Assembly (NCBI GenBank): GCA_947627255.1
Contig: CANQVI010000011.1
Span: 1 to 36,538, forward strand
Direction: 5' to 3'
Length of the DNA: 36,538 bases
Origin: an uncultured Clostridia bacterium
Lineage (GTDB): Bacteria; Bacillota; Clostridia; TANB77; CAG-465
Below are positions 3,563-27,435 of the stretch, piece by piece. Within the stretch, counting starts at the first letter, position 1; each line of letters begins with the position of its first letter. A program made the translations under genes and the position numbers. Under the pieces are notes generated by a model. That model ran no database searches. It was not told where the DNA came from and was given only the letters and a program-made list of their open reading frames with translations.

Positions 3563-6500
3563 TTATTCCTCCACTATTTCAATTTCTTTATTAAGATTAA
3601 ATGAATAGATATATATTTTATCCACTTTATATTCTGTAAGAGTATTAATAGCCTCTTTATATATTTCTAACTGAACTTTATATTTTTTTATAAAATCAGA
3701 ATCATTTTCTATTCTATCTGTTTTGAAATCTACTAAAACTACTTTATCATTATCTGTTACATAGAAAAGGTCAATTATTCCTTGAATTGTACTATTAGAT
3801 ATTTCTTTTTTATTTAATATAAATTCATATTCTCTATATATTTTTTTTGCATTTTTTAGCTCTTTTCCAATATTAGAATTTAAGAAATTATATATTCTAT
3901 TAATATTAATATACTTTTTATCATTTTGACTAATTATACCTTTAAATACTAATTTTTCTATATATTCTTTTATATCTGACTGACTATTTAATTTTTCAAA
4001 TTCAAGATTTTGCAATATAAAATGTACTAATATTCCTTTTCTTACAGCAGTATATCTATTAGCATTTTCATCTAATTCGTATGGTAGCCTAAATTTTGTA
4101 CTTTCTTGTGATTCATCATCTATATCTTTTGTTTCGTCTTCAATCTTTGATGTTATATTAGCTTCACTTTCCTCATTATTTTTCTTTAAATTACTAACAC
4201 TAACTCTTAATGGTGCTATAACATCATCTTTATATTTATAATCATACTCTATCTTATCTTCTATATTTTTTAATATTTCATCATTTGCTACTACATTTGT
4301 GTTTTTCTTTATTTCATCTATTACTTCATTTACAGATTTCTTCACATTTGAAATATTACTTACTGATAACATCTTTTTTAGATTTTCATCTGTTGTATTT
4401 GAAGTTATCTCTAAATGTTGTACATCTAATATATTCTTGTCTTTTTCAAATTCACAATATAGTTTAATTACTGGTAATAAATTTTTATAATAACTATTAT
4501 TAGAAGCAATTAAAGTTTCGTTAAATTTATTATCTTTTATATTTAGTAACTGCATATCATAATCTTTTTTATAATCTTTAGTTGTAGCAAAAATGTATAA
4601 TTTTTCTTTTGCTCTTGTAAGTGCAACATATAGCAGCCTTAATTCTTCTGATTTAGTTTCTTTTTCAATTACTGACTTTATAGCTTGTTTAATTAATGAT
4701 GGATAAGTAATTGATATATCTTGATTAACTACATCTATACCTATACCATATTTATGATGTAATAATACTTTTTCACTACGCAAATCTTTAAAATTATAAT
4801 TTTTTGAACAATCTGCAAGAATTACTATTGGAAATTCTAATCCCTTAGATTTGTGAATTGTCATTACTCTTACAACATCTTCATTTTCTCCAATAATTTT
4901 TGCACTACCACTACTATCTTGCTTATTCTTTAAATTATCTATGTATTTTATATATGAATTTAATGTATTTCCTATATTATTAGTATAGAAATTATTTGCA
5001 AGCTCAATTAGATAATCTAAATTTGCTCTTTTTGATGTAGAATTTTCTTCAAGTGCTAATTGATAGTATATATTTGTATCTTTATATAACCTTATTATTA
5101 AATCTGAAATACTATATACTTTTGAATAATTTGAATATTCCTTTAATAATGCTAAAAATTCTGTAACTTTAGTATATATAATTTCTTCTTTTTTCTTAAA
5201 TTCTTCATCTAAAGCTATGTTATTTAGTACATCATATACATAGCTTTTATTGTCATATAGCCTTATCTTAGTTAGTTCATCTAGTGTGAAATTACCAATA
5301 ATACTATACATTATACTTGTTATATATACATCTTGATATGGATTATCTAATACTCTTAGAAAAGATAGTATTAACTTTACTTCATCTCCGTCAAAAATAC
5401 TACTAGAAGTATCACAAAATACAGGAATATCATTATCTTTTAACACTTTTTCTAATACTTCTGCTTTGCCCTTTATTCCCCTTAGTAATATGACTATATC
5501 CTTATATGTAGCATTTCTTGTAGTTCCATCTTTTTTAGTTATTTTCATATTATTAACTATATCTTGAATTTTAAATGCTATACATTTTGATTCAATTTCA
5601 AATGAAGTTAAGTCTTCATCTATTTCATATTCATCATTTTCTTCATTATCTTCTATATAATTTTTTTCTTCTTGCTTTAAGTCAATTATATTTATCTGAG
5701 TAGTATAATCGCAGCCATCTACATTAGGATAGCTAGTATTTCCACATTTTAAACTTTCATCATAAGTGTAATTACATTGACCATTTTTCATGCTCATTAT
5801 CTTTTCAAATATATAGTTAATTGAGTTAAGAACTTCACTTCTACTTCTAAAATTTTGTGATAATATAATTTTACAATTTTTTATATCTTCTGTGTCTTCT
5901 TCCTCTTTTTTATAGCTTATATATTTATCATTAAAAATATCTGGTCTTGCTTGTCTAAAGCCATATATACTCTGCTTTATATCTCCAACCATAAACCTAT
6001 TATTATCTGTAGCAACTGCTTGAAGTATTCTTTCTTGTACATAGCTTGTATCTTGATACTCATCAGTATATATCTCTTTATACCTTTTTTTAATAGAATT
6101 AGCTATATCTGTAATTTCATCTTTTTCATCTACAAGAAGCTCTAGTGCATAATGCATTATATCATTAAATTCAGCTACTCCACTTTGTATTTTTTCCTCT
6201 TTAAAACGTTTATCAAAAGAAAGTAGTAATTCATATAAATATTTAATGTATTCGTATGCTATGCTATTATCTTGTAAAATATCTGAGCTTTTAGCATATA
6301 TCTTCTTTTTAACTTTTAAAATAACATCTTTAACTTCTGTTTTTCTAAATTCTGCAATTTCTTCTTTTAACTCTATATTACTTACTTTTCCTATTGCAAA
6401 TTTTGCAAATTCAACTGATTCTAAATTTTCATATAACTTATCCCAATTATCATTTTCAATATTTATGCAACTTTTTAACATATAAACATCATCATTTAAA

Positions 6501-12831: not shown

Positions 12832-12838
12832 AAGAAAA

Positions 12839-12869
12839 AATAATGGATAGAAATATCCATTATTTTTTT
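12839..12869 (+). terminator. bidirectional intrinsic terminator between lon-family gene and arginase
   Basis: A perfect 11-bp stem AATAATGGATA/TATCCATTATT with a GAAA loop is followed by seven T on the plus strand. On the minus strand it is followed by six T, so it ends both converging genes. Confidence 0.9.
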
Positions 12870-13737
12870 ATAAATTATTTATAAATGATTTTAATATTGT
12901 TTTAGCAATAATTTTTGTTTTATTATCTATATCTCTTAGTGGATTGTATTCGACTAAATCTAAAGATTTAACTTTATTTTTATACTTAATTATACAATCT
13001 ACTGCCTCATATGCTTCTTCTAAATTTATACCATCCTTTGCTGGAACTGATACTCCAGGAGCAATAAGTGGGTCTATAACATCTAAATCATAGCTAATAT
13101 GGATACCATTTGTATCCCTACTTGCTATTTCTATTGCTTGTTCCATTATATTTTTCATGCCATATCTTTTTATATCTTCTGTTGTAAAAACTTTAACTCC
13201 TGCATCCTTTAAGTTTTCTATTTCAAGTGGATCTATATCTCTACCACCAACTATTACAGTATTTTTATAACTATAATGATTTGAATTATGAAAATAGACT
13301 AATTCTTCTTTTTCATAGCCAGTTATTGCTGCAAGTGGTAAACCATGAATATTACCAGTAATAGTAGTTTTAAATGTATTAAAATCTCCATGTGCATCAA
13401 TCCATATTATACCAAGTTTTTCATTTTTTCTAATTGAAGCTAAAGCCGATGCTATAACTAAGCTATGGTCTCCACCTAATGTTAGTGGAAATTTATTTTC
13501 TTCTATTGTTTCTAAAACTATATTATATAATTTTTCATTAAACTCATTTACTTTTTTTAAATTTTTTCTTAAATTTTCTTTTGATTTTTCTTTATTATCT
13601 TCATCTGCATATATTTTTATAATTTTATTTATATTTTCATTTTCTAAATTTTCAGTCAATTTATCTGGACCAAGTGCTGCACCTTCTACTGAAACTCCTA
13701 AATCGGTACAAGCATTAATCACATTTATATGTTTCAT
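12868..13737 (-). CDS. rocF: arginase
   Basis: Arginase hydrolyses L-arginine to L-ornithine and urea with a binuclear Mn centre. All metal ligands are visible: His91 (GGDHS), Asp114, His116 and Asp118 (DAHGDFN), Asp217 and Asp219 (SYDLDVIDP). Arginase-specific features separate it from agmatinase: NT..T..GNIHGLP after the DAHGD box, and Glu263 in LVEYNP. An in-frame start at 13776 overlaps the preceding gene; the ATG at 13737 has AGAGGA upstream and gives 289 residues, close to the family norm. It begins 16 nt after the MurE-like gene, so the two are co-transcribed, an uncommon pairing. Confidence 0.88.
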   Translation of the reverse strand: MKHINVINACTDLGVSVEGAALGPDKLTENLENENINKIIKIYADEDNKEKSKENLRKNLKKVNEFNEKLYNIVLETIEENKFPLTLGGDHSLVIASALASIRKNEKLGIIWIDAHGDFNTFKTTITGNIHGLPLAAITGYEKEELVYFHNSNHYSYKNTVIVGGRDIDPLEIENLKDAGVKVFTTEDIKRYGMKNIMEQAIEIASRDTNGIHISYDLDVIDPLIAPGVSVPAKDGINLEEAYEAVDCIIKYKNKVKSLDLVEYNPLRDIDNKTKIIAKTILKSFINNL

Positions 13738-13753
13738 TTTTATCCTCTTTTCT

Positions 13754-15283
13754 TTAGTTATTATGTCTTTTATCATATTCGCTTAAATATTTTTCTGTAT
13801 ATTCAACATCTGATATACAAGGTAAATATTCTGTGCCATATTTTTGTCTTGTTTCCCTACCTTTACCAGTAAGAAGAATTATTGTAGGTTTCTCCTCTTT
13901 TTCTGCCTTTAATACTGCATCTAATATTGCTTCTCCTCTTTCTTCAATTAATGCATAGTTCTTAGTATATTTTTTTACATATTGTGCAATATCATTTGAT
14001 ATATCTATTACAGGCTCTGCTCCAGGGTCTTCTGCTACTAAATATACAAAATCTGAATTTTGACCTGCTATAGTGCCTAAATCTTTTCTTCTAAGTAATG
14101 CTTTTTTTCCTGGACATCCAAATATAGCAACAATTCTTCTACCTTTATATTCTTCCTTTACAGAAGAAAATAATTTTTCAAAACTTAGTTTGTTATGTGC
14201 ATAATCTACTAAAATAATTATTTTCATATCTTTAGTGTGGAAAACTTCCATTCTTCCACTACTTCTTGCTATTTTTAGTCCTTCTTTTATGTACTCAACT
14301 GGTATATCCATTAAATAACAAGTAGCTATTGCAGCTAGTGCATTTTCAACATTGAATAATCCTGGCATTGTTAGCATAAATTCATCATCATAAGATGGTG
14401 TATGAACTTTAAATATAGTATTAAATCCATCTTTTCTTATATCATAAGCATAAAAGTCTGTGTCTTTAGTTTTCATTGAGAAAGTAAATACTCTTGCACT
14501 ATCGCGTCTTGCAACAGCAACTGTATTAGAAGCTAAATCTGCATCCATATTTACTATAGCATTCTTAGTATTTGCAAACATTTTTAATTTTGATTGATAG
14601 TAATCATTAAAATCTTTATGCTCAATAGGACTTATATGATCTTCACTTATGTTCATAAAAATACCTATATCAAAAAATACATCTGCAACTCTATCTAATT
14701 TTAACGATTGAGAAGATACTTCCATTACTAAATTTTCCATACCAGAGTTTAATGCATTAGCAAAGTGCTTATGTATATCATATGATTCTGGTGTTGTTAT
14801 GTGTGATTCAAAATTTTCTACACCATCATATGTATCAATAGATGATATAACAGCAGTATCTTTTTTATTATATGCTTTAGAATATACATCTAGTATTGAT
14901 TTAATATAATACGTAGTAGTAGATTTACCTTTTGTTCCCCCTACACCAATTACATTTAAACTTTCACCTGGATAATTAAAATACATAGCAGACATACATG
15001 AAAGTACTTTTTGAATATCATGAACTAATACATATGGAACATCTACATTATACTTTCTTTCACTTATATAAATAAAAGCTCCATTATCTACTGCTTCTTT
15101 TAAATATTCATCTTTAAAAGTAACTCCTTTTACTACAAATAATGTATCTTCTTCTATTTCTTTAGAATTAAATGAAACAAGATTTACTTCTTTATTCATT
15201 ATTTTCTCACAGTTTACTATTTCTTCAACCAAATTTTCATCTTGTAATAATTCTATATATTCTTTTACAGTGTATTTATTCAT
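13754..15283 (-). CDS. murE: MurE-like UDP-N-acetylmuramyl-tripeptide synthetase (Mur ligase)
   Basis: Mur ligase that would add the third residue to UDP-MurNAc-L-Ala-D-Glu in the cytosol. The ATP loop GVGGTKGKST is at residues 113-122, followed by TTPESYDIHK, MNISEDHISPIEH, SSGRMEVF and VDYAHNKLSFE, all at MurE-like positions. The C-terminal substrate motif, DNPR in meso-diaminopimelate enzymes, is EDPG here (residues 418-421, AEDPGAEP), so the Arg that contacts DAP is missing. That argues for another diamino acid, such as lysine or ornithine. An in-frame TTG at 15304 precedes the AAGGAG site; the ATG at 15283 is correctly spaced (509 residues). First gene of a two-gene unit with arginase. 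A divergent MurE-like ligase beside a standard MurE elsewhere is the alternative. Confidence 0.8.
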   Translation of the reverse strand: MNKYTVKEYIELLQDENLVEEIVNCEKIMNKEVNLVSFNSKEIEEDTLFVVKGVTFKDEYLKEAVDNGAFIYISERKYNVDVPYVLVHDIQKVLSCMSAMYFNYPGESLNVIGVGGTKGKSTTTYYIKSILDVYSKAYNKKDTAVISSIDTYDGVENFESHITTPESYDIHKHFANALNSGMENLVMEVSSQSLKLDRVADVFFDIGIFMNISEDHISPIEHKDFNDYYQSKLKMFANTKNAIVNMDADLASNTVAVARRDSARVFTFSMKTKDTDFYAYDIRKDGFNTIFKVHTPSYDDEFMLTMPGLFNVENALAAIATCYLMDIPVEYIKEGLKIARSSGRMEVFHTKDMKIIILVDYAHNKLSFEKLFSSVKEEYKGRRIVAIFGCPGKKALLRRKDLGTIAGQNSDFVYLVAEDPGAEPVIDISNDIAQYVKKYTKNYALIEERGEAILDAVLKAEKEEKPTIILLTGKGRETRQKYGTEYLPCISDVEYTEKYLSEYDKRHNN

Positions 15284-15309: not shown

Positions 15310-15338
15310 ATTATACACTATATATATATCAAAATCAA
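15310..15338 (-). promoter_or_regulatory. promoter of murE-arginase
   Basis: On the minus strand TTGATT (15338-15333), 17-bp spacer, TATAAT (15315-15310), 27 nt before the start codon. Confidence 0.75.
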
Positions 15339-26601: not shown

Positions 26602-27435
26602 CTACTTTGAATTATCTTTTAGACCTTTTTGGTTTTCTTTTTCTAACTGTTTCAAACTTTTTTCAGGTGTAGGCATTTCTTCTGGCATAGTTCCTCCATT
26701 TTTAGCAATTACTTCTCTTATATTTTTACCAATATTGTAATGAGTTTTATTAGCTTCATTTTCAGTTTGTATGTTATCTTTTTTTAATTTTTGTTCTGTT
26801 TGAGAAATTCTAAATAAATTTGCAATAAGTTCATCACTTCCCATATTGTCTAGTATGTCTTCTCTATATCTTAATCCTTTTCTTTTAGCAATATCATCGG
26901 CTGTTTCTCCATTATATAAACCTTTATATCCGCTATTATGAAACTTATCAAAATTTTTTACCCCTGCATTTTTAGCTGCTTGATTAAGTGAATAATTTCC
27001 TTTTCTTGCCAAATCTCTTTGATAAAATCTTTTTTCATCTTCTGTCAATTCGCAATACTCTTTTTCAGTAAGTTCTTGTTTCCTTGTTTGAATAGCAAAA
27101 TACGTTTGAGCTAGTGCTATTACTTTTTTTCTACTATCACCATTTTGTGCTATTAAATAACAAGCATAACGATTTAGCATATAATCTTCAATAAGTTCCT
27201 CTTTTCCTTTTCCTGATATTATTGGCTTACTAACATCAGTAAAGCAATAATTTGTTGATATTTCGCTATTCTTACATGATATCATTGCCTTTTCAATAAT
27301 CTTTTTAAAATTTTGCCATTTAGAATACCCCAAAACTTTTTGTAATTCTCTTGCATACCAAAACTCAGTGCCATCTCCATCTACATGTTTTATACCTTCA
27401 AAGGTATCATTAGTATAATTTTCTAATTCATTCAT
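26602..27435 (-). CDS. dinD: DNA damage-inducible protein D (DinD)
   Basis: DinD is an SOS-induced protein; E. coli DinD binds RecA filaments and inhibits strand exchange. The N-terminal part is a BRO-N/antirepressor-like domain (FWYARELQKVLGYSKWQNF), followed by the DinD-specific segments YMLNRYACYLIAQNGD, YFAIQTRKQEL, FYQRDLARKGNYSLNQAAKNAG and HYNIGKNIREVI. 277 residues, close to E. coli DinD (274). AGGGAG precedes the ATG. A LexA box lies between the -35 and -10 of its promoter. Patchy distribution and location beside ssrA suggest horizontal acquisition. Confidence 0.9.
   Translation of the reverse strand: MNELENYTNDTFEGIKHVDGDGTEFWYARELQKVLGYSKWQNFKKIIEKAMISCKNSEISTNYCFTDVSKPIISGKGKEELIEDYMLNRYACYLIAQNGDSRKKVIALAQTYFAIQTRKQELTEKEYCELTEDEKRFYQRDLARKGNYSLNQAAKNAGVKNFDKFHNSGYKGLYNGETADDIAKRKGLRYREDILDNMGSDELIANLFRISQTEQKLKKDNIQTENEANKTHYNIGKNIREVIAKNGGTMPEEMPTPEKSLKQLEKENQKGLKDNSK

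Follow-up and report, generated by a model that had tools for sequence, protein, structure and literature searches.

How host NOD receptors and PGLYRP-2 recognise peptidoglycan is decided by the third residue of its stem peptide. To our knowledge, what determines this residue is understood for diaminopimelate and lysine, not for ornithine. The arginine of the DNPR motif in diaminopimelate-type MurE contacts the second carboxylate of meso-diaminopimelate. Lysinibacillus (Bacillus) sphaericus, a sporeformer with two MurE, has lysine in its vegetative wall and diaminopimelate in its spores. Staphylococcus aureus MurE binds the side-chain amine of lysine through Asp-406, part of a DNPA motif, and through Glu-460 (PMC3829189). 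Ornithine-containing walls include those of Limosilactobacillus fermentum, Borrelia, Deinococcus, Thermus and Eubacterium limosum; because the wall of E. limosum contains ornithine (PMC4791908), its occurrence in a member of the Clostridia is not new in itself. In Lactococcus, the third residue carries a D-Asp bridge that AslA, RacD and AsnH build and amidate (PMC4155827). This module goes with the L-Lys-D-Asp (A4alpha) and L-Orn-D-Asp (A4beta) walls of lactic acid bacteria. A literature search returned nothing specific on two MurE in one cell or on an arginase feeding peptidoglycan.

How does the present locus compare? The window, by which we mean the whole 36,538-nt stretch of DNA analysed here from an uncultured gut Clostridia bacterium, encodes a second MurE ligase, MurE2, and an arginase. 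MurE2 resembles the L-Lys MurE of Staphylococcus, Enterococcus and Vagococcus (PRK14022 branch; 4C12/4C13) in its fold, its catalytic lysine and its lack of the DNPR arginine; the amine-binding pair (406/460 in S. aureus) is acidic in both, with Glu for Asp at the 406 position of MurE2. It differs in scoring below the PRK14022 cut-off, and in being a second copy beside a diaminopimelate-type MurE, with a co-located arginase. The likeness to L. sphaericus is one genome with two third-residue ligases, but here the second ligase is linked to an arginase. With the ornithine walls the locus would share ornithine as the proposed stem-peptide diamino acid, whereas here the ornithine would come from a ligase-adjacent arginase in a cell that also has a diaminopimelate-type ligase. 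Genes of the AslA/RacD/AsnH module adjoin clostridial relatives of MurE2, whereas the window's own family lacks AslA and a FemX-like transferase is encoded elsewhere in the genome.

The MurE2 and arginase genes

The features of the locus are as follows.
12838..12872, no strand assigned: A+T-rich hairpin with a T-run where the arginase and LonB-like genes converge, read by eye and not among the hits of the scan; a probable terminator
12868..13737, minus strand: arginase (ureohydrolase), 289 aa from its likely start, 192 bits to PF00491
13754..15283, minus strand: MurE2, second UDP-MurNAc-tripeptide synthetase, Lys/Orn-type branch, ATG at 15283, 509 aa
13853..13867, minus strand: GKGRE, MurE2 residues 473-477; E477 lines up with Glu-460 in SKGRE of S. 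aureus MurE, the second side chain that binds the amine
14021..14032, minus strand: EDPG motif, MurE2 residues 418-421; E418 lines up with Asp-406 in DNPA of S. aureus MurE and, in diaminopimelate-type MurE, with the D of DNPR
14588..14590, minus strand: Lys-232 of MurE2, a column invariant across MurE2
15310..15338, minus strand: promoter-like TTGATT-17-TATAAT upstream of MurE2, 10 of 12 matches

MurE2 scores 308.2 bits against the TIGR01085 murE model, above its cut-off of 257.3; beyond this general murE cut-off, no equivalog cut-off is reached. The best single family is PRK14022 (L-Lys ligase), at 347 bits and below the cut-off of 536. With murE as the best family, cyanophycin synthetase, MurT and FolC were ruled out as identities. 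An AlphaFold2 model (pLDDT 94) keeps the full three-domain MurE fold, and VIA-align gives it Z scores of 42.2 to 2xja and 41.2 to 4c12, the best structural matches being the MurE of M. tuberculosis, S. aureus and E. coli (Z 42 to 40). The P-loop GTKGK and K232 are invariant among MurE2 sequences, and we take Lys-232 to be the equivalent of the carbamylated catalytic lysine of MurE (SKLKMF).

The EDPG that the sequence-only reading had placed at ligase residues 418-421 can be read in the window, and across the family the motif is [ED]DP[GAQ] rather than DNPR. With S. aureus numbering placed on MurE2 by alignment via Vagococcus MurE, both amine-binding positions are acidic (E418 and E477), but Glu takes the place of Asp at the first. 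A tree of 90 sequences, the product of a quick search, sets 83 MurE2-type sequences apart from seven DNPR MurE (SH-aLRT 100); the MurE compared with MurE2 were of the DNPR and Lys-branch types, none being of proven ornithine type. The MurE2 clade includes the MurE of Vagococcus, Enterococcus, Atopococcus and Weissella. Judged by sequence, MurE2 is a member of the lysine-type MurE branch found in Vagococcus and Enterococcus, in agreement with the earlier claim that the ligase is of a non-diaminopimelate type. The missing DNPR alone is no sign of ornithine, because Lys-type MurE is also without it.

The longest arginase frame opens at 13776, inside the ligase gene. At 13737, a start with an AGAGGA ribosome site agrees with the starts of orthologues; taking it as the true start, the gap to MurE2 is exactly 16 nt. 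Alignment to 6nfp/1cev locates all six Mn ligands, in the motifs DAHGDFNTFKTTITGNIHG, GGDH and DLD, and the substrate-binding residues N130, N139, H141, D183 and E277; presumably they act as they do elsewhere in the family. An arginase with all Mn ligands that starts 16 nt downstream of the ligase is what had been described from the sequence, and this is confirmed, with GGDH, DAHGD and DLD present and both genes on one strand. The closest solved chains are the bacterial arginases 6nfp, 6dkt and 1cev. The score against the TIGR01229 arginase equivalog is 213 bits, under the cut-off of 227.6, and two changes are seen: T246 to V, which gives SVP for GTP near the catalytic site, and S137 to T. The same SVP is common to MurE2-linked arginases of three lineages (window, L036/L047 and L087), and such enzymes may form a subfamily.

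From the gene layout, co-transcription of MurE2 and the arginase is likely. A shared promoter is plausible; promoter-like sites such as the one upstream of MurE2 are no denser than in shuffled sequence. Elsewhere in the window, 26602-27435 on the minus strand encodes a protein with a BRO-N domain, which is typical of phages and mobile elements.

A canonical MurE and possible fates of ornithine in the same genome

The genome (1.4 Mb, 95% complete) contains another MurE, of the canonical DNPR type (L002), as a gene separate from MurE2. It scores 598 bits on the diaminopimelate-ligase equivalog and lies in the usual division and cell-wall cluster (L082), with MraZ/MraW-like proteins, an FtsI/SpoVD-like PBP, MraY, FtsW and MurG, all named from their sequences. 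DapF is also present (TIGR00652, 280 bits against a cut-off of 115). The window ligase is accordingly ruled out as the sole MurE of the cell. The sequence-only reading had proposed looking for dapF, lysA and another murE: the first and the last are present, and LysA is absent, no PF02784 decarboxylase being found in the genome. It had also set against itself a canonical diaminopimelate-type MurE together with diaminopimelate in the wall; the former exists, as the DNPR MurE. The idea of an organism that is simply of the ornithine type does not survive these finds, since a canonical DNPR MurE and DapF mean that the cell need not rely on ornithine alone at the third position.

Where could ornithine go? 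We found no gene of the OTC/ATC family, no OKR-type decarboxylase (ornithine/arginine/lysine) and no PF02784 decarboxylase in the genome, so few other ornithine sinks were found in a search limited to these families. An arginase feeding an OTC or OKR-decarboxylase route was therefore ruled out.

Some further observations concern the same pathway. DapF was detected in only 23 of the 57 genomes of the order, though all 57 keep a MurE match, and several complete genomes with a DNPR MurE (G028, for example) are without DapF. Two MurF-like ligases are encoded in the genome of the window: contig C9 carries an ordinary one (L005/L199) and contig C8 one of 526 aa. The latter, with N-terminal membrane helices, occupies 4583-6160 on the minus strand of L198 (C8:19000-30000) and is flanked by an alanine racemase, an alpha/beta hydrolase and a D-Ala-D-Ala ligase.

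Recurrent pairing and residue 418

Each of the 27 further genomes searched in the genus has such a second MurE, as do all 8 other genomes of the family and one genome of another family (G048). MurE2 is followed directly by this arginase in 15 genomes of the genus, where the CarD, MurE2 and LonB-like locus is syntenic. Three genomes (G001, G008, G013) have a different, agmatinase-like ureohydrolase (~25% identity) in the same slot after MurE2, and two other genera contribute four genomes (G028, G029, G033, G035) in which the agmatinase-like type lies directly upstream of MurE2 in other surroundings. The arginase and MurE2 genes of G048 converge. Two MurE2-linked ureohydrolase subfamilies are thus found in three gene orders relative to MurE2, and in an order-wide search of 57 genomes a member of one or the other was present in 23, in each case beside MurE2. 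We assume that the seven agmatinase-like partners make ornithine. The remaining ureohydrolases of the order are of a third type, whose neighbours are a PLP aminotransferase-like gene and an ABC-F gene (L060-L064, L066, L067) and, in several genomes, a PF02784 decarboxylase a short distance away; from this context they are probably polyamine pathway genes. With adjacency kept in 15 genomes of the genus and another ureohydrolase adjoining in seven more, the ligase-arginase pair first noticed in the window is real and meaningful, and its ornithine interpretation is partly supported. As a separate observation, MurE2 of G001 (L037, G001:C54) is divided between two reading frames, as would result from a broken gene or from an assembly error.

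Among named genomes, MurE2 was detected by a scan in Sellimonas, Claveliimonas, Mordavella and Clostridium aminobutyricum, and in many Oscillospiraceae, Coriobacteriia and lactic acid bacteria. Within 4 kb of MurE2 there is an ATP-grasp ligase at 16/54 loci and an Asp racemase at 15/54, frequently in the order ligase-racemase-MurE2, and relatives in Lachnospiraceae, Oscillospiraceae and G048 adjoin an ATP-grasp ligase, Asp racemase or AsnB. The same ATP-grasp family occurs in Enterococcus, Vagococcus (gene order AsnB-MurE-ligase-racemase), Atopococcus and coriobacterial genomes; this AslA-like family was not found in Weissella. By sequence, these neighbours appear to match the AslA/RacD/AsnH genes of Lys-D-Asp walls. 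An arginase lies inside the MurE2 cluster of Sellimonas and of SIG657, an Oscillospiraceae MAG (L104), and G048 has arginase, MurE2, an AslA-like ligase and Alr together. An AslA-type D-Asp ligase was present in G048 and was found neither in the genome of the window nor in the 35 other family genomes searched, which rules out this bridge enzyme for the genome of the window. Its FemX-like transferase was dropped as a partner of MurE2, occurring equally in relatives without MurE2. That transferase is present in most genomes of the order and absent from G048, the sole carrier of the D-Asp ligase; within the order, each bridge enzyme seems to exclude the other.

Which residues of MurE2 vary with its partner? 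We compared 76 sequences for a trait defined as an arginase-type enzyme in the genome or the second, MurE2-adjacent ureohydrolase type, the two-type definition having been made after the data were seen. Residue 418 is Glu in 28/28 sequences from genomes with such a ureohydrolase and in 17/48 from those without; Asp is found in 0/28 and 31/48, respectively. None of the 392 columns tested shows a stronger association than 418 (Fisher 3e-9; next best 8e-7), and no other column divides the home family plus G048 perfectly into the two classes. A correlated-evolution model is preferred over an independent one (LR 23.4, p 1e-4), with 0/100 simulations as high. Sequences outside the home family (the discovery set), examined after the pattern had been seen, give p 6e-4 alone. 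Tree-independent pairs all point in the same direction and none in the opposite (8 well supported, 4.5 informative on average, median p 0.06), a test made weak by too few pairs, so that we rely on how the columns rank and on the fit of the correlated-evolution model. Glu exceeds Asp by one carbon, and ornithine has one carbon fewer than lysine; the swap would therefore be expected for a shorter side chain.

The 17 Glu-418 genomes without an arginase may obtain ornithine from another source, or Glu may not equal ornithine. The wall of Atopobium parvulum is reported as L-Lys-D-Asp (PMC3035223), and a congener, Atopobium sp. (L121), has Glu-418. This evidence rules out Glu-418 as a sure marker of ornithine. 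Cultured relatives fall on both sides: Sellimonas caecigallum (which also bears an arginase), Claveliimonas bilis and Clostridium aminobutyricum have Glu-418, Gallibacter intestinalis and Vagococcus fessus Asp-418, as does MurE2 of G024, a close relative of the window's. One genome, G031 (L068, L069), has two MurE2 copies, one with Asp-418 and one with Glu-418, the latter at a contig end and left out of the column test; a ureohydrolase was not found in G031.

What MurE2 may add

Why would a cell with a canonical MurE keep a second one? We favour, with a probability of roughly 0.58, the explanation that MurE2 adds L-ornithine from the co-located arginase alongside diaminopimelate-type synthesis. 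MurE2 would be a UDP-MurNAc-L-Ala-D-Glu ligase with the predicted activity of placing L-ornithine as the third stem residue. The arginase directly behind it, probably on the same transcript, would make ornithine from arginine, and MurE2 would work beside the canonical diaminopimelate MurE to give two wall precursors, mixed or at different life stages. We infer three elements of this scheme: ornithine rather than lysine as the substrate, entry of the product into the wall, and the reason for two precursor lines. MurE2 is read as ornithine-adding because of its Lys-branch grouping, the AslA/RacD neighbours, the recurrent ureohydrolase pairing, residue 418 and the few ornithine sinks. Against this stand the canonical DNPR MurE and DapF, the Glu-418 genomes without an arginase, the Glu-418 of Atopobium sp., the lack of AslA in the home family, the occurrence of the FemX-like transferase also in relatives without MurE2, and a window arginase that falls under its equivalog cut-off and carries T246V and S137T.

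The main rival is that MurE2 adds L-lysine as in Enterococcus/Staphylococcus, the arginase serving arginine catabolism and its ornithine going elsewhere. The closest characterised relatives of MurE2 are L-Lys enzymes, with PRK14022 as best family, acidic residues are kept at both amine-binding positions (as E418 and E477), and S. aureus MurE takes ornithine 400-fold less well than lysine (PMC3829189). Lysine would in any case have to come from outside or by another route in a genome without LysA. Yet a lysine-adding MurE2 leaves unexplained why the presence of an arginase is mirrored more closely by 418 than by all other columns, why two ureohydrolase subfamilies always adjoin MurE2 in this order, and where ornithine goes without OTC or the decarboxylases searched; we regard it as unlikely, at somewhat better than one chance in four.

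MurE2 might instead serve outside the wall, making another peptide (a storage polymer, a signal or an antibiotic-like product) from arginine-derived ornithine. Such a role would fit the complete canonical MurE already in the division cluster, the position of home-family MurE2 away from other wall genes, and a Mur ligase fold common to cyanophycin synthetases. MurE2 nevertheless keeps its full N-terminal domain and the MurE-wide invariant residues, it is most closely related to MurE of the lactic acid bacterial wall and to those linked to AslA/RacD, and no CphA-type ATP-grasp partner is fused or adjacent to it, which leaves a non-wall role improbable. More improbable still is that the pairing is a neutral gene-order accident kept by slow rearrangement. 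The locus is syntenic in the home genus and one insertion could therefore explain 15 genomes, but different ureohydrolases occupy the same slot after MurE2, other genera have an upstream placement in other surroundings, another family has a convergent copy, and ureohydrolase presence co-varies with residue 418.

The ornithine-adding MurE2 can be placed in a wider picture, to which we give slightly less than even odds. A group of gut Clostridia would have two third-residue ligases, for diaminopimelate and ornithine, and the ornithine line would have several origins, each through a one-carbon change from Asp to Glu where the amine is bound, coupled to the gain, next to the ligase gene, of an enzyme that makes ornithine (arginase or the second ureohydrolase subfamily). 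Because one position follows arginase in many lineages, it offers a direct and cheap mutational test, and residue 418 is a possible way to read wall type from the genomes of unculturable bacteria. If gut bacteria make two kinds of stem peptide, this would bear on how the host senses their wall fragments. In Sellimonas, Claveliimonas and Mordavella (L087, L088, L089), MurE2 and a DNPR MurE lie close together after a D-Asp ligase and an Asp racemase; dual-MurE clusters therefore exist in cultured gut species.
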